Assembly (NCBI GenBank): GCA_025363435.1
Contig: JANYDY010000115.1
Location: 21,484-85,483 of the forward strand
DNA length: 64,000 nt
Origin: Betaproteobacteria bacterium
GTDB lineage: Bacteria > Pseudomonadota > Gammaproteobacteria > Burkholderiales > SG8-41
Reading direction: 5' to 3'
The position numbers and the translations under genes were made by a program. How positions within the stretch are numbered: the first letter of the stretch is position 1; each line of letters starts with the position of its first letter. Positions 47,640 to 64,000 of the stretch are shown here, piece by piece. The notes below the pieces were generated by a model, which worked only from the letters and a program-made list of their open reading frames with translations, did not search any database and was not told the DNA's origin.

Positions 47640-47915
47640 ATGAAATCATTCCACTTTCAGCAAAAAGCGCGTCAATTTGGTCAGGGCATGACTGAATACA
47701 TCATCATCGTGGCGTTGATTGCAGTTGCTGCAATCGGCGTCTACAGCTATTTCGGTCAGGCCATCCGCGGTCAAACCGCGCAGATGACTAACGAATTGGC
47801 CGGTGGTTCGAGCTCGGCAGGCAAGACTGCTGCAACCGGTGCATCGACCGCCGCAGATACCGCCGCCACCACCAAGCAAAACTTGGGCACTTATAACGGA
47901 CAAGCTGGGAAGTAA
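47640..47915 (+). CDS. Flp-type pilin
   Basis: ARQFG|QGMTEYIIIVALIAVAAIGVYSYF: Gly(-1), Glu(+5), Tyr(+6), hydrophobic helix; first gene of the Tad run. Confidence 0.85.
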   Translation: MKSFHFQQKARQFGQGMTEYIIIVALIAVAAIGVYSYFGQAIRGQTAQMTNELAGGSSSAGKTAATGASTAADTAATTKQNLGTYNGQAGK

Positions 47916-47953: not shown

Positions 47954-49714
47954 GTGATGCGCGGCCGAGCGAGTTTTTCTCAGCGCGGGCAGGCGCTCGT
48001 GTTCGTCACGATCTTCATGCTTGTCGTTATGCTGGCGCTGCTTACCATGTACAGCATGGGGCAGCTCACCACCGAGAAAATGAAGCTGCAGAACACCGCG
48101 GATGCGGCCGCTTACAGCGCCGCCGTGGCGCAGGCGCGCGACTACAATTTCTCGGCCTATACAAATCGCGCCATGATCGCCAATCAGGTTGCGATGGCGC
48201 AGTTGGTCGGTCTGACTGCGTGGGTGCGCAATTACGACGATACATTTAGAACATTAACGCCGCAGGTGAGCTGGATGGCGCGCGGTGCCGTCGCCAACGT
48301 ACTGTGGACTCCGTTTGTGGGTGCTTTAAGGGCCGCCGCCGGCGGGCTGAGAAGCGGATTTAATTCTGCAGCGCCGATTGTCGCCAAGGGTTTGCAGATC
48401 ATCATCGATGCGCTCGGATTCGGCCAGTCGGTGTACCACTACGGCACGGCGCTTACCGTTGCGCAGACGCTGGGTGTCGACAATAAAATGAACACGATTC
48501 TGGCCGGCCTCGCTGGTTTTGATATGAGCGGGTTCACCAGTTTGATTGCATTCGGCAACCAGTATGATGTTGTAAAAATGAATGATCCGGATGCTGCTCT
48601 GAGCCTGCTCGGACTTGTCGGATACGCCTACAACACCTACGAGTGGTTCAAATTTACCTCGGAAAAAAACCCGACGCTGGCTAAATCGACGACCGGTAAG
48701 ACCGCTGATGGCGGAAATTCGGAACGCTTTGCCAAAGTTACGACCAGTTCGATGGATGGTTTCTACGATATACGCACGCGACCGTGGGTGCCGTTTCCGT
48801 GGCCGTTACCGTCTGTGCTGGTGGATCCGACCTTTCTAGTTGGCGGGCCTATGGTCTACGGTTTCACCATGCTGCTGTTTCATAACGGCGGCACCGAACT
48901 CAGAAATAACAACAAGACGTGGAGCGCGATGGATGTGACGAGTTTTTTCGGGCTCGTCACCATTCCGATTTTTATTCCGCCGTTCGGACCGTTTATCAAT
49001 CTGCCGATCCTGCCGTGGCTGATTCCGCCGTTCGGACCCGGCGCAGGGGGCGCGGCACAGGCCGGGCCTTCGAATTCGATCAGTTCAACCGGCAATTTCG
49101 ATCGCGATAATCCGGCGGGTAGTAAATCCGGCTTTGATTCTTACGGCAAGTCTTACTCCGCAAACGCAATTGTCGCGGCCATGCAGCAGGGTAAGGGGGC
49201 GGGGACGTCGCTGGCCACCAGCGGCGGTTTACGTACCTATCGCGATGTCGCAGATGTGGCCCAGGTTACCGATACAGACCATCAGAATCTGAGTTCCCCG
49301 CCGATCATTGTTGAGGTGGAGAAACCATCCAATACGATCTTCACAAGTGCAAATGGTAATTTGCGTGTCGGGCGCGGCGGCAGCACTACAGCCGATCCTG
49401 CCGGTTGCGGCCCGAGCGCGCGTACTGCGCCGGCCATAACGGCGCTGGTGGCTACCGGAAATCTCGATGTCGGCGACGGTATGGCCAGTAATTGCATGCG
49501 CGCGCTGTCCAAAGCCGAGGCTTATTTTTCGCGTCCCGCCGATATATTTGCGCGCGGTGACGGCAAGGCGGAGTACGGCAGTCTTTACAGTCCTTATTGG
49601 CAGGCAAGATTGTTGCCGAACAGTATTGCCGAGCAGGCGGCATCGATGATTATTCAGGGATTGAGTTTCGGTACAATTGCCTCATGGTACAACGACTACC
49701 TCGCCAAATTCTAA
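47954..49714 (+). CDS. Large TadG-like pilus-associated protein (586 aa)
   Basis: N-terminal SQRGQALVFVTIFMLVVMLALLTMYSMGQLTTEKMKLQNTADAAAYSAAV resembles TadE/TadG-like N-termini. Confidence 0.7.
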   Translation: MMRGRASFSQRGQALVFVTIFMLVVMLALLTMYSMGQLTTEKMKLQNTADAAAYSAAVAQARDYNFSAYTNRAMIANQVAMAQLVGLTAWVRNYDDTFRTLTPQVSWMARGAVANVLWTPFVGALRAAAGGLRSGFNSAAPIVAKGLQIIIDALGFGQSVYHYGTALTVAQTLGVDNKMNTILAGLAGFDMSGFTSLIAFGNQYDVVKMNDPDAALSLLGLVGYAYNTYEWFKFTSEKNPTLAKSTTGKTADGGNSERFAKVTTSSMDGFYDIRTRPWVPFPWPLPSVLVDPTFLVGGPMVYGFTMLLFHNGGTELRNNNKTWSAMDVTSFFGLVTIPIFIPPFGPFINLPILPWLIPPFGPGAGGAAQAGPSNSISSTGNFDRDNPAGSKSGFDSYGKSYSANAIVAAMQQGKGAGTSLATSGGLRTYRDVADVAQVTDTDHQNLSSPPIIVEVEKPSNTIFTSANGNLRVGRGGSTTADPAGCGPSARTAPAITALVATGNLDVGDGMASNCMRALSKAEAYFSRPADIFARGDGKAEYGSLYSPYWQARLLPNSIAEQAASMIIQGLSFGTIASWYNDYLAKF

Positions 49715-50570: not shown

Positions 50571-51299
50571 ATGACGAATTTGTTCAAGCGGTTTTCCGGA
50601 TTTTTCATTGCGCTTGCTGCTGTGGCGGCGTGTACTTGCGCGCCGGCGATGGCGGACGAGCCGAAGCTTGATTGCGCGCCGTTTCCGGCCCCGGAATTCA
50701 AGCTGACCTGGGTGATGCAGGATATTTTGTTTAACGGCCTGCCGATGCAGGTAAAAAAATTCGACAGTCCCGAGAGCGCGCAATCGATACTGGCGTATTA
50801 CCGGCGCGAGTGGAAGGCGGCGCCGCAACGTCCGGCCGGTATTGAATATGAAATCGGCGAATGGAAGGTCATCGCAGCATTACGCGGAACCTGTTTTTAT
50901 ACGGTGCAGGTGCAACGCGGCGCCGGCAATGGATCGACCGGATTGCTGGGGGTGAGCCAACTGCAGGATCCGGGGCAGGCACGCGTCGCCGGCAAGGGCA
51001 TTCCAATGATGTCAGGTAGCAACGTGGTGAACGATATCAACCACCGCGATCCCGGCAAAGCCGCGCGCACAATACTGCTGATGAATGCTTTTTCTCCTGC
51101 TGCTAACGCCGATTTTTACCGGCGTACCATGACCGCAGACGGATGGCGTATTATTGCGGATAATACTTTGCCAATACGCGGCGGCAATGGCGAAGCCCAT
51201 ACCCTCACATTGAAACGCGGCCTCAATGAGGCCGGCATGACTATTTCGCGCAGTGGCGAGGGCAGTAGCGTGTTGTTGAATATGATGGACAAACCTTAG
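50571..51299 (+). CDS. Secreted hypothetical protein embedded in the Tad operon
   Basis: Signal-peptide-like N-terminus, 242 aa, same strand and tight spacing; no recognised family. Confidence 0.65.
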   Translation: MTNLFKRFSGFFIALAAVAACTCAPAMADEPKLDCAPFPAPEFKLTWVMQDILFNGLPMQVKKFDSPESAQSILAYYRREWKAAPQRPAGIEYEIGEWKVIAALRGTCFYTVQVQRGAGNGSTGLLGVSQLQDPGQARVAGKGIPMMSGSNVVNDINHRDPGKAARTILLMNAFSPAANADFYRRTMTADGWRIIADNTLPIRGGNGEAHTLTLKRGLNEAGMTISRSGEGSSVLLNMMDKP

Positions 51300-51535: not shown

Positions 51536-52624
51536 ATGCGCATCCTTCGAATTTTGATCTCGCGAATAAACCGGATGTGGCTGCTGCTCGGTGTAGCAGT
51601 GCTGCTCGGATTGACCGCGACCTGGGTGACCATGCAATACCTGAAGGTGCGTGAACAGCGTATTGAAGCCGAGGTGAAAAAACGCGCCAGCGGCGGCAAT
51701 ACCGTAGATGTGGTGGCGGTCGCGCGTAATCTGCCCAAAGGTGCCGTAATCAGCGGGGAAAATCTGGTCAAGCGCGAAATACTGGAAGACCTCGTTTACG
51801 AGGAAACCATCCTGTTGAATGATTTTGACAAAGTGAATGGTATGAAACTCGCGCGCGCAGTCGAGAGCGGGCGGCCATTGCGTCGCTCGGATCTTGAACT
51901 GCGCACCAAGGAATTTTCCGAGGAACTCACGCAGGGCACGCGCGCGATCACCATAGAAGTTGATGAAATCAACTCGGTTGCACAGATGGTGCGGCCGGGC
52001 AATCTGGTTGACTTGATGTTGATTGTGGCTGATCCCAACGACCCATCCGGCGGGCAGCAGGTTGTTTCCCTGCTGCAGAAAGTCAAAGTGCTGGCGACCG
52101 GCCAAACGGTTGCGCGCAACGCTGACCGCGACCGCGACGCTGCGAGCGCGCCTGCGAAGGGCGGTCTGGTCGGACCGGGTTCCTCGGCTGGCAATAGCAC
52201 GGGGCCGCTGCGTTACAGCAACTTTACGTTTGAGGTGACGCCCGAAGAGGCGGCGCGCATCGCGCTCGGCCAGCAACTCGGAAAAATCAGGGCGGTACTG
52301 CGCAACGACGAAGACATGCGCATGGACCCGCTGGCAAAAATAAACAGCCAGTCGCTGATGCAAGGTTACTCACCTGGCAAAAAAGGCCAGCAGCAGGCCG
52401 AGCGACCCACCGTCGAATTTATTATCGGCGGCAAGGGCGGCGGCGGCGCTACTCCGACGACCGTCAATGTAAACATGGCTTCGCCAATGGGTGGCGGCGT
52501 ACCAACCAGCGCTGCGCCTGCGAGCCCACCACCGGCAGCGGCGGGTACCGGACAGGTCAATATTCCCGGCCTCGGCAATGTGCCGTTCACAGTGCCACCC
52601 GGTGCCGGCGTAACAGGCAGGTAG
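51536..52624 (+). CDS. cpaB: Flp pilus assembly protein CpaB/RcpC
   Basis: VVAVARNLPKGAVISGENLVKREI (SAF domain); TQGTRAITIEVDEINSVAQMVRPGNLVDLMLI. Confidence 0.9.
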   Translation: MRILRILISRINRMWLLLGVAVLLGLTATWVTMQYLKVREQRIEAEVKKRASGGNTVDVVAVARNLPKGAVISGENLVKREILEDLVYEETILLNDFDKVNGMKLARAVESGRPLRRSDLELRTKEFSEELTQGTRAITIEVDEINSVAQMVRPGNLVDLMLIVADPNDPSGGQQVVSLLQKVKVLATGQTVARNADRDRDAASAPAKGGLVGPGSSAGNSTGPLRYSNFTFEVTPEEAARIALGQQLGKIRAVLRNDEDMRMDPLAKINSQSLMQGYSPGKKGQQQAERPTVEFIIGGKGGGGATPTTVNVNMASPMGGGVPTSAAPASPPPAAAGTGQVNIPGLGNVPFTVPPGAGVTGR

Positions 52625-52677: not shown

Positions 52678-53982
52678 ATGAGCTCTCGTCTGAAAGTTGT
52701 GTTTGCCATCGTCGCCGGTATTTTGCTTGCGCCCTGGGTCAACTGGGTTAACGCCGCCGAAGAGATCACCGCGATCAACCTCTACGTCGGAGAGGTCAAG
52801 ACCCTGCCGCTGACAAAAATACAGCGCGTCGCATTGGGTAACGGCAAAGTTGTTACTGCGAATGTTCTTGAGAACGAATTGCTGTTGCTTGCCGAGACCC
52901 CGGGACGCACCAGTCTTTTCGTCTGGACTACCGACGGCAAGCAGTCGATGTTTGATGTCACCGTTTCCGCCAGCGACGGCGGCAATACGCAGAAACGATT
53001 GAAAGATCTGCTCTCGGGCATGCCCGGCATAGCGGTTGATCGCGCCGGCGAGCATGTTGTCGTCACCGGCACCGCGACCAAGGCGAATCTGGCGCGTATC
53101 GACGCAATCGCGAAATTGTTCCCGCAGACACTCAATCTGGTGCGCGAAGAAGAAGTGACGATGAAGCGCATGGTTTACATGAAAGTGCAGATCGTCGAGA
53201 TGAAGAAGTCGCTGAGCGAGAATATCGGTGTTGCCTGGGATCAGACGGCAAACGGTCCGGCAGCGGGTTTCGGCGGTGATCTCGTTAACAACAATCTTTT
53301 CCGTATTCCCAATACCGCACCGACGAATTTCCCGTCGCCGTTGCCGTTGTCGCTGCAGGCTTTCCGTGGCTACCTCGGGCTCACGACGTCGATTACTTCC
53401 CGGATCAACCTGGCGGTGAATACCGGCGATGCTTTCGTGCTGGCAAGCCCCGAACTGAGCACGCGTAGCGGCGGAGAAGCAAAGTTCCTGGCGGGCGGCC
53501 AGATTCCGCTGATTACACCGGCCACGGCGTTTGCGCCGGCATCGATCACCTACAAGGATTACGGCATCAAGCTTTCGATCATGCCGACCGCCGATGAGAG
53601 AGGCAATGTCAGCACCACCATCAAGACCGAAGTCAGCAGTATTGATAGTTCGGTTGCAGTGCAGGGCAATCCCGGTTTTCTCACGCGTGCGACCGATTCC
53701 GAAGTGAACGTGCAGGCGGGGCAGACCATCGTTATATCCGGGCTGGTGAACAGCGATCTGGCGAAGGATGTGACAAGGGTGCCGGGGCTCAGCAATATTC
53801 CGATTCTCGGCGCACTGTTTCGTTCAACCAATTTCCGCAACAACCGCACCGACCTCGTGATTTTCGTGACGCCGACGGTGATCGACCCGACTTCGACCAT
53901 GAATCGTGAGCGGTTGGAGAAAGCGCAGGATATGCAGAACAAGTTCCAGCGCCAACTCGGCCCCAAGGGTATCGTCGACTAA
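52678..53982 (+). CDS. cpaC: Type II/IV secretin CpaC/RcpA
   Basis: LYVGEVKTLPLTKIQRVALGNGKVVTANV; secretin core SSIDSSVAVQGNPGFLTRATDSEVNVQAGQTIVISGLV...LPGLSNIPILGALFRSTNFRNNRTDLVIFVTP-type sequence. Confidence 0.92.
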   Translation: MSSRLKVVFAIVAGILLAPWVNWVNAAEEITAINLYVGEVKTLPLTKIQRVALGNGKVVTANVLENELLLLAETPGRTSLFVWTTDGKQSMFDVTVSASDGGNTQKRLKDLLSGMPGIAVDRAGEHVVVTGTATKANLARIDAIAKLFPQTLNLVREEEVTMKRMVYMKVQIVEMKKSLSENIGVAWDQTANGPAAGFGGDLVNNNLFRIPNTAPTNFPSPLPLSLQAFRGYLGLTTSITSRINLAVNTGDAFVLASPELSTRSGGEAKFLAGGQIPLITPATAFAPASITYKDYGIKLSIMPTADERGNVSTTIKTEVSSIDSSVAVQGNPGFLTRATDSEVNVQAGQTIVISGLVNSDLAKDVTRVPGLSNIPILGALFRSTNFRNNRTDLVIFVTPTVIDPTSTMNRERLEKAQDMQNKFQRQLGPKGIVD

Positions 53983-54013
53983 TTCAACTTAAACGCCTGC
54001 GGGAGCCAGTACC

Positions 54014-55765
54014 ATGTTTGCTGTTGAAGTTAAATCTCCAAAGGGCCAGCAGAATCGCGTCGAGTGCCAGATTGATTCCTGCACCATAGGCAAGGCCGAC
54101 GACAATCTCATCGTCGTGCGAGGCTGGTCGGTAGGCAAGCGCCACGCCACAATCCACCGCCGTGCTGACGGATATTTTGTCGAAGACCATGGCGCACTGG
54201 GCGCCACCGAAGTCAACGGCAAGATTATCGAAAAACAGTACGGGCCGTTGCAGGCGGAAGATGTTATCCGTATCGGTGATTACAATTTGAAAGTTGTTGC
54301 CGATGCCGGGCAACCGGCGGCAGCTGCGCCGGACGCGATGCCGGTAGCTCAGCCCGTTGTTTCCCAACCTGCTGCAGTGGCTGCGGCACCTGCGGCTGCC
54401 AAACCGGCGGCGCCGGTCGCTGCAGCACCCGTTGCGGCGCCTGCACCGGTAACGCCGGTTTCGGCGCCGGCGCCGGTGTCACCGCTGGTCGCGGCGATGA
54501 ACGAGGCGCGGCGCAATCTGCATAGCAAGCTGATCAGCCAGATGGATTTGCGCCGGCTCGACGTCAGCCATATGGGCGAGGATGCGCTGCGCACCAGTAC
54601 GCAGGCGATGATCGCGGAGATACTCGCCGCCGACCGTTCGCTGCCCGCCGAACTCGACCGCGTCAGGCTGGCCAAGGATGTGCTCGATGAAGTGGTGGGC
54701 CTTGGCCCGCTTGAGGATTTGCTGGCCGATCCGACGGTGAGCGAAATCATGGTCAACCGCTTTGATGAAATTTACGTTGAGCGCAAGGGCCAGCTCACCA
54801 AGTCTGACATCACCTTCAGCAACGATCAGGCGGTACTCGGTGCAATTGAGCGTATCGTCGCGCCGATCGGCCGGCGCATTGATGAAAGTTCACCGATGGT
54901 CGATGCACGCCTGAAAGACGGTTCGCGCGTCAATGCGGTGATTCCGCCGCTGGCGCTGAAGGGCTGCAACATCACGATCCGCAAGTTTTCCAAGACCAAA
55001 CTGGTCGATAAAGACATGATCGGCTATAACTCCGTCACCGCCGACATGATGAGCTTTCTAAAGATTGCGGTTGAACAGGCGGCCAATATTGTGATTTCCG
55101 GCGGCACCGGTTCCGGCAAGACCACTCTGCTTAATGTGATGTCCAATTACATTCCCGACGACGAGCGCATCGTCACCGTCGAAGACGCTGCCGAATTGCA
55201 ACTTGCCAAACCGCATTTGATTTCGCTCGAGTCGCGCCCGCCCAATTCCGAAGGCAAGGGCGCCATCACCATCCGCGATCTGGTCAAGAACTGTCTGCGC
55301 ATGCGCCCCGACCGTATCGTCGTCGGCGAGTGCCGCGGCGGCGAGGCGCTCGATATGTTGCAGGCGATGAACACCGGCCACGACGGTTCGCTGACGACGG
55401 CGCATGCCAACACGCCGCGCGATTGTATCGCCCGTCTCGAGGTGATGACGCTGATGTCGGGGTTGGATCTGCCTTTACGCGCGATTCGCGAACAGATTGC
55501 TTCGGCTGTGCACATGATTGTGCAGCAAAGCCGTTTTCCAGACGGCAGCCGCAAAGTCACCCACATCACCGAAGTTACCGGCATGGAAGGCGACATCGTG
55601 CAGTTGCAGGATATTTTTCTCTTCAAGCAGGACGGCTACGATGCCAACGGCAAGGTCAAGGGCCGCTTTGTCGCCACCGGCAATATCCCGGACTTCTGCC
55701 AGGATCTGGCCGCGCGCGGTATCCCGGTTGATCTGGGGATTTTTCAGCCGCCGGAACGCCGCTGA
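54014..55765 (+). CDS. cpaF: FHA domain fused to CpaF/TadA secretion ATPase
   Basis: N-terminal SCTIGKADDNLIVVRGWSVGKRHATIHRRADGYFVEDHGALGATEVNG FHA pattern, Ala/Pro linker, then CpaF with VISGGTGSGKTTLLNVMSNYIPDDERIVTVEDAAELQL. Confidence 0.93.
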   Translation: MFAVEVKSPKGQQNRVECQIDSCTIGKADDNLIVVRGWSVGKRHATIHRRADGYFVEDHGALGATEVNGKIIEKQYGPLQAEDVIRIGDYNLKVVADAGQPAAAAPDAMPVAQPVVSQPAAVAAAPAAAKPAAPVAAAPVAAPAPVTPVSAPAPVSPLVAAMNEARRNLHSKLISQMDLRRLDVSHMGEDALRTSTQAMIAEILAADRSLPAELDRVRLAKDVLDEVVGLGPLEDLLADPTVSEIMVNRFDEIYVERKGQLTKSDITFSNDQAVLGAIERIVAPIGRRIDESSPMVDARLKDGSRVNAVIPPLALKGCNITIRKFSKTKLVDKDMIGYNSVTADMMSFLKIAVEQAANIVISGGTGSGKTTLLNVMSNYIPDDERIVTVEDAAELQLAKPHLISLESRPPNSEGKGAITIRDLVKNCLRMRPDRIVVGECRGGEALDMLQAMNTGHDGSLTTAHANTPRDCIARLEVMTLMSGLDLPLRAIREQIASAVHMIVQQSRFPDGSRKVTHITEVTGMEGDIVQLQDIFLFKQDGYDANGKVKGRFVATGNIPDFCQDLAARGIPVDLGIFQPPERR

Positions 55766-56616
55766 TGAGCAGTCTGAATTTTGTAATCGGACTCGTGCTG
55801 GTGGCAGCTATTGTCATCGGCGTGGTTCTTATACAGCTTGCCGAGGAATTTCTGCGGCGGCAGAAAAAAAACATTGCGACCACCGCAAAAAGCGGCCTCG
55901 ACGATATGTTCATATTTGTCGATCCGACGAAAATTTTTTACTACAATGTGGTTGCGCTAATTGTAATTCCACTGGTGCTTTGGTTACTGTTCGATGCGGC
56001 GATTCTGGCGATTGCGGCGGCTGTCATTGTCACGATCATGCCGAAATTTGTAGTCAGTCATTTGCGCAAGCGTCGCCTCAAACTGTTCGAGCGCCAGTTG
56101 CCGGACGCGCTGTTGATGATTTCGGGTGGCATGCGCGCTGGCGCCAGCCTGACGGTAGCGCTCGAATCGATGGTCAAGGAACAGAAGCCGCCGCTCGCGC
56201 AGGAATTCGAATTGATGCTGCGCGAACAGCGTTTGGGCGTGGATTTTGATACTGCGCTGAAGAATATGGAAAAACGCATGCCGCTGCAGGATTTCATCCT
56301 GGTGGTTGCCGGCATGCGGATTTCGCGCGAGGTCGGCGGCAATTTTGCTGAGATACTTGAGACGCTGGCGGATACGTTGCGGCGCAAACACCAGATGGAA
56401 GGCAAGATCGACGCTCTTACGGCGCAGGGCCGCATGCAGGGCCTGATCATGACCTGTTTGCCGCTGTTTCTGCTGCTGGCCCTGACCAAGATGGAACCGG
56501 AAGCGATGGCGCCGATGTACAACACGCTGGTCGGTTGGGCGACGCTGGCGGTGGTGGCGGCGATGGAAGTCATCGGCTATTTTGCAATTCAGAAAGTTGT
56601 CACGATAGACGTCTGA
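55765..56616 (+). CDS. tadB: Tad inner-membrane platform protein TadB
   Basis: T2SSF domain: QLPDALLMISGGMRAGASLTVALESMVKEQKPPLAQEFELMLREQRLGVDFDTAL. Confidence 0.9.
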   Translation: MSSLNFVIGLVLVAAIVIGVVLIQLAEEFLRRQKKNIATTAKSGLDDMFIFVDPTKIFYYNVVALIVIPLVLWLLFDAAILAIAAAVIVTIMPKFVVSHLRKRRLKLFERQLPDALLMISGGMRAGASLTVALESMVKEQKPPLAQEFELMLREQRLGVDFDTALKNMEKRMPLQDFILVVAGMRISREVGGNFAEILETLADTLRRKHQMEGKIDALTAQGRMQGLIMTCLPLFLLLALTKMEPEAMAPMYNTLVGWATLAVVAAMEVIGYFAIQKVVTIDV

Positions 56617-57500
56617 TGAGCGACCTGACGCTGGCAATGACGGTAGGCGGACTGATCGGCGTTTGTGCGCTGTTTCTGTTCTATAGCCTCGGCTCACTCA
56701 AGGCCGAAGTGCCCTCTGAAGACCGCGAGTACATGGATCCGCTGCCGTTCGCGTTGCGTTTGATGTGGCCAGTCGTGCGTTTTCTCGAATTTCACCTGTG
56801 CGCATTTATTCCGCCGGATTCGCTCGAGCGCACGCACGAAAAATTGCAGCTTACCGGTGTGGGTTATCTGCTGAACGCCGAGCAGTTTTATGCAGTGCGT
56901 ATCGTTTCGGTGCTGGCTGTTTTCGGTATGACGTATTTCGGCCTCGAGATGTTGCAAAAGGAATCGACGAATACCCTGTTGTTCAGCCTGCTGCTCGGTT
57001 ATTTTTATCCCGAGATCTGGTTGCGCGATGTGCGTGCGCGCCGCTACAAGGCGGTGCAGAAAGCGCTGCCGGTGTATCTCGACTTCATTACGATGGCGGT
57101 CGAAGCCGGGCTGAATCTGACCGGCGCGATCAATCAGGCTATGGACAAAGGTCCGGCCGGGCCGCTGCGCCACGAATTTTTTATGGTGGTGCGTGATCTG
57201 CGTTCAGGCCTGCCGCGTGCCGACGCCTTGCGGCGTATGGAAAAACGTCTTGCCATGTCGGAGATCACCAGCTTTGTCGGTACCGTCATCCAGGCCGAAA
57301 AAATGGGCGCTTCACTGGGCGCCGCACTGCGCTCGCAGGCCGAACAACGACGCACCGAACGCTTTCAGCGCGCCGAGAAACAGGCCATGGAGGCGCCGGT
57401 CAAACTGATCGGCCCGCTGATGATGTTTATTTTCCCGGTGACCTTTATTGTGCTTGGTTTTCCGATTGTCATGAAGTTCCTGAACTCGGGGATGTTTTGA
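56616..57500 (+). CDS. tadC: Tad inner-membrane platform protein TadC
   Basis: ALPVYLDFITMAVEAGLNLTGAINQAMDKGPAGPLRHEFFMVVRDLRSGLPRADALRRMEKR (T2SSF). Confidence 0.9.
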   Translation: MSDLTLAMTVGGLIGVCALFLFYSLGSLKAEVPSEDREYMDPLPFALRLMWPVVRFLEFHLCAFIPPDSLERTHEKLQLTGVGYLLNAEQFYAVRIVSVLAVFGMTYFGLEMLQKESTNTLLFSLLLGYFYPEIWLRDVRARRYKAVQKALPVYLDFITMAVEAGLNLTGAINQAMDKGPAGPLRHEFFMVVRDLRSGLPRADALRRMEKRLAMSEITSFVGTVIQAEKMGASLGAALRSQAEQRRTERFQRAEKQAMEAPVKLIGPLMMFIFPVTFIVLGFPIVMKFLNSGMF

Positions 57501-57853
57501 AGCTGGGCGCAGTCTACGAAGAGGGCGGCCGCTGCGTCGTCTCGCGGGTGTGGCGCGCCGCGAGTGCGCCTGAGCGCATGCGCGGCCTGCTCGGCCGCCC
57601 GCCGCTTGCGCACGACGAAGGAATGCTGATCGAGGCCTGCGGCATGGTGCATACCTTCGGCATGAAATACCGGCTCGATCTTGCATTTCTGGATTCGCTC
57701 GGGCGCGTCTGCAAGCTGGTGCACGAACTGCGGCCGGCGCGCTGCGCGGGCAGTTTCCGCGCGAAATCGACGCTTGAACTCGCACCCGGCACGCTGGAAA
57801 AAACCAGGCTCCGGATCGGCGACCGCCTCAACTGGCAGGAAGCGGCAACATGA
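57497..57853 (+). CDS. DUF192 family protein
   Basis: RMRGLLGRPPLAHDEGMLIEACGMVHTFGMKYRLDLAFLDSLGRVCKLVHELRP; 4-nt overlaps with both neighbours. Confidence 0.88.
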   Translation: MKLGAVYEEGGRCVVSRVWRAASAPERMRGLLGRPPLAHDEGMLIEACGMVHTFGMKYRLDLAFLDSLGRVCKLVHELRPARCAGSFRAKSTLELAPGTLEKTRLRIGDRLNWQEAAT

Positions 57854-58356
57854 ATCTTCACCGCTGCGCCGCGGCTGTATTGTTTCTGGCAATGATTTCG
57901 GGTTGCACCATGCTCGGCAGCCACGGCGGCGGCGACGATCTGCTCAGAATGCAGCGTGAGGCGCAGGCGGCTTTCGACAACGGCGACGATGCGCGTGCGG
58001 AAGTGTTGTTCAAGGCGCTGGTTCGCGCCATACCGAACGATGCGGAGACCTGGCTGCGGCTGGGCAATCTTTACGCGCGTACCAACAATGCCGATCAGGC
58101 GGTGGAAGCCTATATGAAATCGCTGTCGTTGAACAACAACGATTCGCGCGCCTGGAATAACCTCGGCATCGTGCGCCTGCGCCAGTCGTGGGCGGCGCTG
58201 ATACGCGCCAACGCGCTGGCTGATCCGAAAGATCCGGCGTTTGCCAACAGCAGCGAGACCGTCAAGGTGCTCGAACAATTACCTTCGATCGCAGACCTCA
58301 AAGCGGCAAAGCCGGCCGCCGGTGCCGAACCGCGCAAAGCGGGGGCGCAGAAATGA
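57850..58356 (+). CDS. tadD: TPR lipoprotein, TadD-like
   Basis: Lipobox AMISGCTM; TPR sequence AETWLRLGNLYARTNNADQAVEAYMKSLSLNNNDSRAWNNLGIVRL. Confidence 0.85.
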   Translation: MNLHRCAAAVLFLAMISGCTMLGSHGGGDDLLRMQREAQAAFDNGDDARAEVLFKALVRAIPNDAETWLRLGNLYARTNNADQAVEAYMKSLSLNNNDSRAWNNLGIVRLRQSWAALIRANALADPKDPAFANSSETVKVLEQLPSIADLKAAKPAAGAEPRKAGAQK

Positions 58357-59207
58357 TCGCGCCGGTCGTGGCGTACCGGCTGTTTGCACGCGCAGTGCCG
58401 CAGCGCGGCCAGGCGATGATTGAGTACTTGATCATTTTCCCGGCGCTGCTCCTGCTGGTCATGGGGGCGATTCAGTTTGCGCTGATTTACCAGGCGAAGT
58501 TCACGCTTAACTACGCGACCTTCATGGCGGCGCGACAGGGCGCGCTGAAGAACGCCAAACTGACGCCGATCAAGGACGGCCTCGCCGCCGGCATGACGCC
58601 ACTGTTCATGCGCACCACCAGCTCGCCGGATGTCGGCGATCTGGCAAAGGCGCGTGTTATTGCGATGATCGAAGCATTCAATCCGCTCACTACCAAGGTC
58701 GAGATTATCAGTCCGACCAAGCAGGCGCACATTGACATGGGCAATAACATCCCGAACGATAACCTGATGTACCGCAGCACCTCCGGCGATGGCATGTCCG
58801 TGCAGGATGCCAACCTGTTGAAAATCCGCGTCACCTATTGCGTCAGATTGATCGTGCCCTTCGTCAACCGCGTGATTTATGCGCTGTCCAACGGCATTAC
58901 GGGCGCGAAAAATCTCACCGACGAATCATTCTGGGTATCGCCGTCGGCACCGACGACGCCCAATATGTGCACGATGCCTTCCGATACGGTCGCCAGTCTC
59001 GTCAGCAAGCTCGATGATGTTTCCGGCATGCCCGCGGACATCAAAAACGCGATTGGCGCCGCCGGAAATTCAGTGGCAGACCTGCTCAACAACATTCCGA
59101 CGACCATTCCGTTTCTGAACTGGAACATCGCCGGTATGCGTATTCCGATCACCGCCGAGGCGATCGTGCGCATGCAAAGTCCGGTAGCGGTCGATAATCT
59201 GCCCTGA
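58353..59207 (+). CDS. TadE-like pseudopilin
   Basis: PQRG|QAMIEYLIIFPALLLLVMGAIQFALIYQAKFTLNYATFMAARQGAL. Confidence 0.85.
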   Translation: MIAPVVAYRLFARAVPQRGQAMIEYLIIFPALLLLVMGAIQFALIYQAKFTLNYATFMAARQGALKNAKLTPIKDGLAAGMTPLFMRTTSSPDVGDLAKARVIAMIEAFNPLTTKVEIISPTKQAHIDMGNNIPNDNLMYRSTSGDGMSVQDANLLKIRVTYCVRLIVPFVNRVIYALSNGITGAKNLTDESFWVSPSAPTTPNMCTMPSDTVASLVSKLDDVSGMPADIKNAIGAAGNSVADLLNNIPTTIPFLNWNIAGMRIPITAEAIVRMQSPVAVDNLP

Positions 59208-59289: not shown

Positions 59290-62200
59290 CTAACGGCGCG
59301 GCGTGCCCGGGCCGTTGCCGCGGCCTTCCCGATACAAATTCACGCCGTCGCCCTGTACTGCCAGCACCGGCGCCGGCAATGCACTGGTACTCGGTGCCGC
59401 AAGCGCGACCGGCGTCGCGGCGCCTGCTGCGGGTGCTGCAGGATTCGCCGGTTTTGCCGCGGGCGGGGCGACAATTCCTTTTGCAATTACTGCGTCGTTA
59501 TTTGCGGTCGGCGCAGGCGTATTGTTGCCGCCCGTTGCAGCCGCGAGCGGTTTTGCCGCGGGTTTCCCGCCGCTGCTTGCAGCGATAGCGACGCACGAGC
59601 CACCGCCACCGGGCGCGGCAGCTGTGCCGGGCGGGCAGTTCACTGTTGCCTGATTTGAGTTGCTGTCGCTCGCGGTTGCAGTACCGCTAGACGCGGTGCC
59701 GCCGCCAGTCGTCGAGCCACCGGGATCGGTCGAGCCACCGGTGCCGCCGGTTGTGCCGCCACCGGTACCACCGGTCGAACCGCTTGATGCCGTTGAAGTG
59801 CCGCCGCCGGGCGTCGAGCCACCGGGGTCGGTCGAGCCACCAGTGCCGCCGGTTGTGCCGCCGCCGGTGCCACCGGTCGAACCGCTTGATGCCGTTGAGG
59901 TGCCGCCACCGCCGGTAGTCGAACCACCGGGCTCGGTTGAGCCACCGGTGCCGCCGGTTGTGCCGCCACCGGTGCCACCGGTTGTGCCGCCACCGGTGCC
60001 ACCGGTCGAACCGCTTGATGCTGTTGAGGTGCCACCGCCGCCGGTAGTCGAACCACCGGGATCGGTTGAGCCACCGGTGCCGCCGGTTGTGCCGCCGCCA
60101 GCACCGCTGGTCGAACCGCTTGATGCCGTTGAGGTGCCGCCACCGCCGGTAGTCGAACCACCGGGATCGGTCGAGCCACCAGTGCCGCCGGTCGTGCCGC
60201 CGCCGGTGCCACCGGTCGAACCGGTTGATGCCGTTGAAGTGCCACCACCTGTCGTCGAACCACCGGGATCGGTTGAACCACCGGTGCCGCCGGTTGTTCC
60301 GCCGCCAGTACCGCCGGTGGGCGTGCCTCCGCCACCGGTACCAGTTGTTCCACCGGGCGTAGTCGAACCCGGATCAACGCCGGCGACCGGACCAGTGGGT
60401 GCGGGCGGGCCGGCGGGATCGGGCGGGGTGCCGCCAGGTGTAGTCGAACCCGGATCGACACCGGCGACCGGACCAGTGGGTGCGGGCGGACCGGCGGGAT
60501 CAGGCGGTGCGCCGCCGGGTGTAGTCGAACCCGGATCGACGCCTGCGACCGGACCAGTGGGTGCAGGCGGACCGGCGGGATCAGGCGCGGTGCCGCCGGG
60601 CGTAGTCGAACCCGGATCGACGCCTGCGACCGGACCTGTGGGTGCAGGCGGACCGGCGGGATCAGGCGGTGTGCCGCCAGGTGTAGTCGAGCCCGGATCA
60701 ACGCCTGCAACCGGACCTGTGGGTGCGGGCGGACCGGCGGGGTCGGGCGGTGTTCCACCGGATGTTGTTGTTCCGGGATCAATAGCGACGGGACCGATCG
60801 GTGTCGTCGGATCGGTTGGATCGGGCGGCGTTCCACCTGGCGGTGTAGTGCCCGGATCAATAGCGACCGGACCGATCGGTGTGGTCGGATCGGGCGGTGT
60901 GGTACCCGGTGGTGTGGTGCCGGGATCGGGCGGGCCTGCGATCGGACCGACCGGTGTGGTCGGATCTGGCGGTGTGGTACCTGGTGGTGTGGTGCCCGGA
61001 TCGGGCGGACCAACAACGACCGGACCGATTGGATCAGGTGGCGTGGTTCCCGGAGGCGGTGTCGTCGGATCATCGGGCGGCACATAGGTAATGACGATGA
61101 CAGGGTCGCCGGGATCAGTCGACCCGGTACCCGGTGTTGGCAACGGACTGCCACCGGTGCCCGGCGGAGTTGTTCCGCCAGGTGGCGTGGTCGAACCCGT
61201 ACCCGGAGGGGAGGAAGGAGGTGTCGATGGTATTGTGCCGGTTGCCGTGCCTGTTGCACCACCGGTAGGACCGCTCGACGGCCCTGCAGTGCCGGGGCCA
61301 CCGCCACCACCGCCCCCGCCGCCTCCACCACCCCCGCCGCCTCCACCACCGCCTCCGCCGCCCCCACCCCCGCCACCGGGGACAACGCCGGTGCCCGGCG
61401 TCGGTGTTCCACCGGGTGTCCATGTTCCTGTGCCCGTGGGTATCGTGCCGCTGGTGCCGCTGCCGCCCGTCGCAATGGTGGCAGTCGTGTGCGTGAAAAT
61501 TGTTCCGGTAGTGGAAACCGCAAGCGTGCGGCTGCCGATGTTGAACGGCGTAACACCGGTCACCGAATCGGAACCGGTGTGAATGTTGCCGGTTAGCGTA
61601 TTGCTCGGTCCCGAACTGACCGTCGTGCCGCTGACGGTGATCGCAGCGGTCGCATTGAATTTATTGAGCAGATCAAGCGAATAATTCGTATTGATCGTCT
61701 GCTTGCTGCCGGGCAGGCCGATCAGGGTACTGGTTGCCGTGGTTGATGCCGTGCTGATCAACATGCCGGACGCCGCCGGCAATGCGCCGACGGTGGTCGA
61801 TAGATCCGCGCCTGCCGCACCGGCGCCGGTGATCTTGATCGTGTCGCCGACGTTGATGCCGGCGCTCGAATTGACAATCAGCGTGCCGCTGCCGGCGCGT
61901 ATGGTGCCGGTGGTCGTGAACGGTCCGCCGAACAGCGGCGTAATCGTTACCGTGACATTGTTGACCGCGGTGGTTGCGCTGGCGCCCAGCGTGATCAGCG
62001 GGCCGAGCGCCGATATCGTTGTGGAGAGAGTGGCGCCGCCGGGGCCTGCACCGAGCACATCGATGGTGCTGCCAGCACTGAAACCGCTGGTGGTATTGAC
62101 CGTCAGCAGATCGGAGCCCGCGGTGGCATTGCCGACTGCATTGGTGTGGTAGTCGATCGAGTTGAATACGCCGACGGTGTTCGACAGCGTATAGGGTTGC

Positions 62201-64000
62201 AATGAGACATTGACACCGGCGGCCGTCGTGTAATTGCCGGCCGCACTCGGCAGCGACAGCGTGTTTGCCTTGAACAGCAGGTTGGTGCCGGTGCTGTTCA
62301 GCGCTTCGAGCGTAATGCCGCCCGCGCCGCCGGCAACCAGCGCCAGATTGTTCACCGTGCCGACATTGTGCGCGACGATATTACCGGTGGTCGATACGTT
62401 GAGATTGCGCGCGCCCAGACTCAGCGCACCGTCGTTGCCGATGAATACATTGCCGGTCTGCCGCGGTGTGCCGGTAATGCCCAGCGGGAAGGTCGGCGGG
62501 AAAGTACCGCTGGTGTCACCGCCGATGGTGAGGTTGGCCTGCGGATGAAATTGATTGAGCAGCGCCGACGAATAATTGGTCGAGCCGGCGCCGACCGCCG
62601 TATTGGTAACTGCGGCGCCCGCTACCGCTGCCGTCACCAGATCGTTGATGGTGACGGAGGTGCCGGTGATGGCAGTGATCGATGTCGTCAATGCGGCGCC
62701 GCCGACGCCGGCGCCGGCGACAACGATGGTGTCGCCGACCGCGAAGCCGGTGCCCGAGCCAACCGTCAGCACCTTGGGCTGAGTGATCGCGGCATTCGTT
62801 ATTGCCGTGGTCACCGCGGTACCGACGACGATTGCGGACGACGCCGGCAGCGCGTTTACAGTCGCCACCAGCGCAGCGCTAGCCGCGCCCGCGCCGGCAA
62901 CGCTGATGCTGTCGCCGGGGTTGATGCCCGCGCTCGATGAAATAATCAATGTGCTCGAGCCGCTGCGGATCGAGCCGGTTGTGGTGAATGTTGCGCCGAC
63001 TGTCGGGGTAACGGTGACAACAACGTCGGTTACGTTAGTGGCGGCAGCGCCGCTGAGTGTGACGAGCGGGCCCAGCCCGGTAATCGTGGTTCGTACCGAA
63101 GCGCCGGCAGTGCCGGCGCCGGCGATATCAATGGTGTCGCCTTTACTGAATCCGCTGGTGGCGCTGACGGTGATGACATCGGTTGTTGCCGCGGCAGTGC
63201 CGGATATCGACAGATTGCCGCCCGTGGTGGCGGCATGCGGCAGGTCGGTGCCCGTCGCATTATTAATGCCGATCACGTTGCCGGTGGTGAATGGCTGCAG
63301 CACGACATTGACGCCGGATGTGGTCAGCGCCTGGGTAATCGTCAGGTTATCGGCGCGCAACAAAATATTCTGACCGGAACTGTTGAGCAGCGTGATCGTT
63401 TGTTTTGCGCCGGCGGCTTCCGAACTCAACGCCAGATTGCCGGTGACGTTGATCGCCGCGGCGCTCAGATCGCCGCCGGTGCGCAGTGTCACATTGCCGG
63501 CGCGCAGATCCTTGTTCTCGCCGATGCGATAGGTCGAGGTCGCATCGGGCGTCGTCGTCCACGCGCTTGCAATTATCAGTTTGTGCGCGTCGTTGCTGGT
63601 GATCGTCGCGATCTGGCCGACGCCGGTGCCGCCGGTGATTTCGATTTTTCTGCCGGCATGCTGATTGGTGGCGAAGGTGCTGTTGTTATCGGTCAGCGAC
63701 GAGGCCGGCACGGTGGCGCCGCTGCTTGCCGTGCCGGTGGTTGCAACGTCCTGCACACCGAGCGTAAATGCGGTTAACGCGCCGGTGCGCGCAGTGTTGT
63801 CGATGGTGGCATCCTTGCTGCCGTTGAGCAGCAGGGATGCGACATTGGTTTTCAGATCGAAGGTGCCCTTGCCGACTTCAGCAGTCAGATTGAGCAGGCT
63901 CGCTTCGATGCTGCCCGAGCCGGTGGTTGTTGCTTTCGTGTCGCCAACCAGAAACAGCAGCAGTTGGCCGGTGCGGTCGGTCACCGGCGAGGTATCGTCG
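59290..64000 (-). CDS. Very large repeat-rich surface/adhesin-type protein (5' end beyond the window)
   Basis: Continuous minus-strand ORF of at least 1564 aa: beta-helix-like repeats (GDTIxxxGAGxxGAxLxTTI), poly-Gly, Pro/Asp/Thr tandem repeats, Ala/Pro-rich C-terminus ending LYREGRGNGPGTPRR. Confidence 0.8.
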   Translation of the reverse strand, partial: DDTSPVTDRTGQLLLFLVGDTKATTTGSGSIEASLLNLTAEVGKGTFDLKTNVASLLLNGSKDATIDNTARTGALTAFTLGVQDVATTGTASSGATVPASSLTDNNSTFATNQHAGRKIEITGGTGVGQIATITSNDAHKLIIASAWTTTPDATSTYRIGENKDLRAGNVTLRTGGDLSAAAINVTGNLALSSEAAGAKQTITLLNSSGQNILLRADNLTITQALTTSGVNVVLQPFTTGNVIGINNATGTDLPHAATTGGNLSISGTAAATTDVITVSATSGFSKGDTIDIAGAGTAGASVRTTITGLGPLVTLSGAAATNVTDVVVTVTPTVGATFTTTGSIRSGSSTLIISSSAGINPGDSISVAGAGAASAALVATVNALPASSAIVVGTAVTTAITNAAITQPKVLTVGSGTGFAVGDTIVVAGAGVGGAALTTSITAITGTSVTINDLVTAAVAGAAVTNTAVGAGSTNYSSALLNQFHPQANLTIGGDTSGTFPPTFPLGITGTPRQTGNVFIGNDGALSLGARNLNVSTTGNIVAHNVGTVNNLALVAGGAGGITLEALNSTGTNLLFKANTLSLPSAAGNYTTAAGVNVSLQPYTLSNTVGVFNSIDYHTNAVGNATAGSDLLTVNTTSGFSAGSTIDVLGAGPGGATLSTTISALGPLITLGASATTAVNNVTVTITPLFGGPFTTTGTIRAGSGTLIVNSSAGINVGDTIKITGAGAAGADLSTTVGALPAASGMLISTASTTATSTLIGLPGSKQTINTNYSLDLLNKFNATAAITVSGTTVSSGPSNTLTGNIHTGSDSVTGVTPFNIGSRTLAVSTTGTIFTHTTATIATGGSGTSGTIPTGTGTWTPGGTPTPGTGVVPGGGGGGGGGGGGGGGGGGGGGGGGGGGPGTAGPSSGPTGGATGTATGTIPSTPPSSPPGTGSTTPPGGTTPPGTGGSPLPTPGTGSTDPGDPVIVITYVPPDDPTTPPPGTTPPDPIGPVVVGPPDPGTTPPGTTPPDPTTPVGPIAGPPDPGTTPPGTTPPDPTTPIGPVAIDPGTTPPGGTPPDPTDPTTPIGPVAIDPGTTTSGGTPPDPAGPPAPTGPVAGVDPGSTTPGGTPPDPAGPPAPTGPVAGVDPGSTTPGGTAPDPAGPPAPTGPVAGVDPGSTTPGGAPPDPAGPPAPTGPVAGVDPGSTTPGGTPPDPAGPPAPTGPVAGVDPGSTTPGGTTGTGGGGTPTGGTGGGTTGGTGGSTDPGGSTTGGGTSTASTGSTGGTGGGTTGGTGGSTDPGGSTTGGGGTSTASSGSTSGAGGGTTGGTGGSTDPGGSTTGGGGTSTASSGSTGGTGGGTTGGTGGGTTGGTGGSTEPGGSTTGGGGTSTASSGSTGGTGGGTTGGTGGSTDPGGSTPGGGTSTASSGSTGGTGGGTTGGTGGSTDPGGSTTGGGTASSGTATASDSNSNQATVNCPPGTAAAPGGGGSCVAIAASSGGKPAAKPLAAATGGNNTPAPTANNDAVIAKGIVAPPAAKPANPAAPAAGAATPVALAAPSTSALPAPVLAVQGDGVNLYREGRGNGPGTPRR
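59690..60330 (-). repeat. Coding tandem repeat, about 34-43 aa per unit (GGTGGGTTGGTGGSTDPGGSTTGGGGTSTASSGST)
   Basis: Marker 'cttgatgc' recurs at about 59783, 59885, 60014, 60119 and (variant) 60224: periods 102, 129, 105, 105 bp, all multiples of 3. Confidence 0.85.
60360..60765 (-). repeat. Five-copy 81-bp coding tandem repeat (27 aa, PAGPPAPTGPVAGVDPGSTTPGGTPPD)
   Basis: 'tagtcgaRcccggatc' at 60360, 60441, 60522, 60603, 60684: exact 81-bp spacing. Confidence 0.92.

Follow-up and report, generated by a model that had tools for sequence, protein, structure and literature searches.

The window, a stretch of 64,000 nucleotides of DNA, carries the canonical Tad/Flp set (flp, cpaB, cpaC, cpaF, cpaG, cpaH and tadE/G) together in one cluster, which is intact on a single contig. 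The genes and features of the cluster are:

47640..47915, + strand: flp pilin (Flp_Fap E 5e-4, below the Pfam cut-off; homologous to the flp of relatives)
47954..49714, + strand: tadG-like protein (Pfam Tad)
50571..51299, + strand: putative secreted protein of 242 aa with a signal-like N-terminal stretch (no Pfam or NCBIfam match)
51536..52624, + strand: cpaB/rcpC (Pfam RcpC and SAF)
52678..53982, + strand: cpaC/rcpA secretin (Pfam Secretin, E 1.3e-38; T2SS-T3SS_pil_N at residues 32-96)
53983..54013: gap of 31 bp between cpaC and cpaF, the site of cpaE/tadZ in other Tad loci (compare L055 and L057)
54014..55765, + strand: cpaF (tadA), 583 aa, comprising an FHA domain, an Ala/Pro linker, a helical bundle and a PilT/VirB11-type motor ATPase
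54014..54310, + strand: FHA domain of CpaF, residues 1-99 (Pfam, model and PDB fold matches)
54305..54478, + strand: flexible Ala/Pro linker of CpaF, residues 98-155, 67% Ala+Pro (composition and full-length model)
54482..55762, + strand: three-helix bundle, NTD and ATPase of CpaF (Pfam T2SSE, alignment and model)
55765..56616, + strand: cpaG/tadB inner-membrane platform (Pfam T2SSF)
56619..57500, + strand: cpaH/tadC inner-membrane platform (Pfam T2SSF)
57497..57853, + strand: DUF192 protein within the tad operon (Pfam PF02643, E 4.8e-17)
57850..58356, + strand: TPR lipoprotein, tadD-like (Pfam TPR)
58353..59207, + strand: TadE-like minor pilin (Pfam TadE)

The scan of the cluster genes revealed no CpaA/TadV prepilin peptidase. 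On the minus strand at 59290-63984, an ORF of 1564 amino acids with Gly/Thr/Pro-rich repeats converges with the tad operon; it is possibly a large repetitive adhesin.

The original prediction placed an FHA domain at the N-terminus of CpaF, followed by an Ala/Pro linker of about 60 residues, and both features were confirmed. The cpaF ORF matches Pfam FHA (PF00498, E 1.6e-11) at residues 23-88 and Pfam T2SSE (PF00437, E 1.1e-60) at residues 229-505, contains the Walker A sequence SGGTGSGKTT at residues 362-371, and aligns with seven relatives having the identical domain order. A model of residues 1-99, built with 41 homologues, forms an FHA beta-sandwich (pLDDT 93.9, pTM 0.87), and its best PDB matches in Foldseek are the FHA domains of Ki67, GarA, EmbR and OdhI. 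The linker measures 58 residues, 67% of them alanine or proline. A full-length AlphaFold model, built from eight sequences and of low overall confidence (pLDDT 57), was used for domain layout only; in it residues 98-154 fall below a pLDDT of 50, indicating disorder, and helices span residues 157-179, 189-206 and 216-228. This order is identical to that of the class III CpaF proteins (FHA-IDR-3HB-NTD-CAD), which are mostly betaproteobacterial and include E3HIW0 of Achromobacter xylosoxidans (PMC12019362). With its FHA domain, disordered linker, and three-helix bundle, NTD and ATPase, the window protein is a member of class III.

CpaE/TadZ is not encoded in the tad operon of the window. Its absence between cpaC and cpaF had been predicted, and the distance of 31 bp from the end of cpaC to the start of cpaF indeed leaves room for no gene. 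Genome-wide, AAA_31 matched Soj/ParA, an orphan ParA, FlhG and Mrp, all identified from their translations, with one further frame of 181 amino acids below threshold. The genome search for cpaE/tadZ proposed with the prediction found no full-length CpaE when a profile of 14 CpaE sequences was used; as the genome is 91.7% complete and in 118 contigs, this absence is not absolute outside the tad cluster. A candidate second CpaF (C35:19368) was rejected, being a PilT-family ATPase by sequence.

Distribution of FHA-CpaF and CpaE

The flanks (up to 10 kb) of 90 CpaF loci and of the window were screened with FHA and CpaE profiles built in the present analysis, the CpaE profile having 32 seeds and being searched against CpaF-masked ORFs. 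CpaE was present in the flanks of 0/41 FHA-CpaF loci, among which L112 was entered as FHA by eye and some (e.g. L071 and L089) have short flanks. Where FHA was lacking, 34 CpaFs had an adjacent CpaE and 14 had CpaE fused to their N-terminus; of the remainder, L129 has neither FHA nor CpaE, and a contig end truncates L113. A second sample of 150 genomes, a few of them shared with the first, was drawn evenly from the order of the window and contained 50 CpaFs. An adjacent CpaE was found for 0/22 FHA-CpaFs versus 25/28 CpaFs without FHA (Fisher 5e-11, which describes the pattern and not a count of independent events, since few independent contrasts exist); the latter figure becomes 26/28 once the divergent CpaE of G098 is included. 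Genome-wide, no full-length CpaE was detected in 13/19 FHA-CpaF genomes; the remaining six have eight CpaE genes, each of which adjoins a CpaF without FHA. One same-genus genome (G008) has both kinds of locus, as do Massilia relatives. Mutual exclusion of FHA-CpaF and CpaE holds at all loci tested.

At L129, at L158 4786-6168 (G152:C33) and at L159 4253-5494 (G088), CpaF has no FHA domain and no CpaE could be recognised next to it; these Tad systems appear to be devoid of both, so loss of CpaE does not need an FHA domain. At L076, L078-L081, L086, L087, L091, L096, L102, L107, L121, L130 and L134 the N-terminus of CpaF is fused to a MinD-like CpaE. These fusions come from Bdellovibrionota, Elusimicrobiota, Omnitrophota, WOR-3 and others, and the CpaE receiver domain is missing from them. 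CpaE is thus joined to CpaF where the FHA domain sits in FHA-CpaF, which argues that CpaE is a direct partner of CpaF.

The gene for the 242-aa protein is present in 21/24 FHA-type loci of Proteobacteria, the three exceptions each having less than 2.6 kb of upstream sequence, and in 1/16 other FHA loci (a weak match); it occurs in 0/34 CpaE-adjacent and 0/14 CpaE-fused loci, hence in 0/48 CpaE-bearing loci. The gene is a marker for the proteobacterial FHA-type Tad subtype, and its product is a possible new Tad component. The DUF192 gene was also found in 20/24 FHA-type and 10/34 CpaE-adjacent Tad loci.

The prediction that the FHA domain could replace TadZ gains comparative support from the mutual exclusion and from the CpaE-CpaF fusions; the replacement itself we infer from this pattern. 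In a tree of the CpaF core, FHA/CpaE states change only four times. A single FHA-CpaF clade was not rejected (AU p 0.31), and there are only one or two independent contrasts, so all FHA-CpaFs may belong to one deep clade and the exclusion may be one evolutionary event that involved no functional replacement. TadZ relatives are found in archaeal pili, where the origin of Tad has been placed (PMC6668835), which argues that CpaE was probably lost and not primitively absent.

The FHA domain and the loss of CpaE might instead be two features with no connection beyond their inheritance in one old Tad lineage, in which CpaE is dispensable and the FHA domain serves, for example, motor self-assembly or auto-regulation. 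The small number of contrasts fits this explanation, as do the CpaFs that have neither FHA nor CpaE, but no reversal occurs in either sample, across Pseudomonadota, Myxococcota and PVC and even in genomes with both systems, and a third group has CpaE fused at the same end of CpaF. On this evidence, unrelated inheritance appears rather unlikely.

Phosphothreonine contact residues and Ser/Thr kinases

FHA domains contact the phosphopeptide through an arginine, a serine and an asparagine, while a glycine and a histidine are structural (PMC4037201). The FHA domain of the window keeps the structural G26 and H44 and reads K27, G41 and G63 at the three contact positions, a register also obtained by profile alignment to GarA. 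Of the Arg/Ser/Asn triad, 25 proteobacterial CpaF FHA domains keep none (15 domains), one (9) or two (1), and a second set of 17 CpaF FHA domains keeps zero or one; in a comparison set of 22 standalone FHA domains the triad is complete in 18, with two of three residues in the other 4. W38 is present in 25/25 of the proteobacterial domains and 13/17 of the second set, and P78 in 25/25 and 17/17; G77 is conserved too. Together with D58, the clade-specific W38 and G77-P78 make up a conserved FHA surface in the proteobacterial branch that differs from the phospho-site. In FHA-CpaFs of Myxococcota and PVC the triad is often retained (complete in 6/15), and decay of the phospho-site therefore belongs to the branch of the window. 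These residues warn against labelling such FHA domains as phospho-readers by default.

The kinase search proposed with the prediction did return a match, although an incomplete one. The single Pkinase match in the genome, an ORF of 249 amino acids at L006 1465-2214 (contig C11), has no N-lobe, its alignment starting at position 70 of the profile; it overlaps the end of a transglutaminase gene and is decayed, frameshifted or misassembled. At three loci of the sister genus (L050 3338-4690, L051 16488-17840 and L052 12099-13526) a Ser/Thr kinase gene directly precedes flp on the same strand, and its product has a C-terminal cNMP-binding-like region, as read from the sequence. This kinase gene is missing at the locus of the window, and two same-genus genomes have orthologues (66-68%) located elsewhere. 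A kinase-motif scan based on a regular expression alone flagged 7/40 FHA loci and two loci without FHA, which amounts to a weak enrichment. Phospho-control is possible in the relatives and is not supported for the window protein.

These data bear on the proposal that the FHA domain still reads phosphothreonine, with K27 in place of the arginine, and that the motor is gated by a Ser/Thr kinase, in the manner of T6SS Fha1/TagH or of the suggestion made for Myxococcus Kil. The sister-genus kinases, with their cNMP-binding region and their same-genus orthologues, and the triad retained in other FHA-CpaF lineages would be consistent with such a switch. Against it stand the K/G/G residues of the window, the retention of at most one contact in 24/25 members of the clade, and the weak enrichment of the kinase motif; moreover, the kinase match of the window's own genome lacks the N-lobe, yet its FHA domain is 89-91% identical to those of same-genus relatives. 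Phospho-switching is therefore considered unlikely. The original prediction that the domain could couple the motor to Ser/Thr phosphorylation is not supported for the window protein, and the absence of phospho-binding residues, which it had named as evidence against itself, was found at K27, G41 and G63 as far as phospho-reading is concerned.

A possible docking role for the FHA domain

The window locus encodes the motor of a CpaE-free Tad pilus subtype, and the architecture of this CpaF, a folded FHA domain on a flexible linker, is conserved in a deep clade. The chances seem about even that phospho-independent docking by the FHA domain covers part of the CpaE job. In the CpaF hexamer each subunit would contribute one FHA head, and the six together would form a phospho-independent docking ring. 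By tethering the motor either to the inner-membrane platform or to a partner that positions it, this ring would assume a share of the work done elsewhere by CpaE dimers arranged in a ring about CpaF. Models of the Caulobacter system place six CpaE dimers around CpaF, where they approach the base of the motor in the piliated state (PMC13170226); the six FHA heads, each on its flexible linker, would occupy a comparable place. Docking is favoured because of this placement and because the FHA domain of the T3SS protein PrgH, which has a poor phospho-site, tolerates mutation of that site without effect, while deletion of the domain blocks assembly (PMC3635987). The FHA domain of afadin likewise binds in a phospho-independent manner (PMC9355967). 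The window genes tested include no other cytoplasmic protein shared by the FHA-type clusters. Counting against docking, K27 may still be capable of binding phosphate, a kinase precedes flp in three sister-genus genomes, and the triad persists in Myxococcota and PVC.

Supply of the CpaE function in trans by an unlinked ParA/MinD-family protein is highly improbable: the genome does hold an orphan ParA-like gene (L014 1435-2259) and FlhG (L015 1105-2001), but no candidate matches CpaE over its full length, and FlhG adjoins flhF and a sigma factor.

For the wider history of these systems, we tentatively suggest that a branch of Tad may have swapped the MinD-like CpaE/TadZ for an FHA domain on the motor, which in Proteobacteria would later have acquired a new conserved surface and become a docking module independent of phosphorylation. 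If so, the CpaE-CpaF fusions and the FHA-CpaFs together would make the N-terminus of CpaF a shared attachment point for alternative positioning or regulatory modules.

Comparison with known systems

The FHA-CpaF fusion has already been published. The class III FHA domain is said to bind phospho-threonine peptides (PMC12019362), whereas the contact residues are lost from the window protein. CpaE and TadZ are mentioned neither in that paper nor in the description of the Myxococcus Kil apparatus (PMC8460266), and no link between the FHA domain and CpaE was found in the open-access literature searched.

The canonical Tad systems of Caulobacter and Aggregatibacter share with the window the secretin, CpaB, CpaF, CpaG/H, Flp and TadE/G. 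CpaE, however, which has been called ubiquitous in Tad and which models arrange in a ring about CpaF (PMC13170226), is lacking from the window. FHA-CpaF systems are a natural counter-example to a ubiquitous CpaE, allowing its role and its replacements to be asked about directly, and the CpaE-CpaF fusions point independently to a direct partnership of the two proteins.

The cytoplasmic FHA domains of the T3SS proteins PrgH, MxiG and YscD resemble that of the window in having a decayed phospho-site within a ring-shaped envelope machine (PMC3635987). The T3SS domain is carried by a membrane ring protein and that of the window by the motor; the likeness is one of working and not of membership.

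KilF of the Myxococcus Kil predation apparatus is an FHA-fused Tad-type ATPase (PMC8460266), and CpaE is likewise missing at L069 and L070, two FHA-CpaF loci of Myxococcaceae. Unlike the window, the FHA domains of L069 and L070 retain the Arg/Ser/Asn triad. Kil is encoded in two clusters with several FHA proteins and has a short secretin without N0 (PMC8460266), whereas the CpaC of the window matches T2SS-T3SS_pil_N near its N-terminus (residues 32-96).
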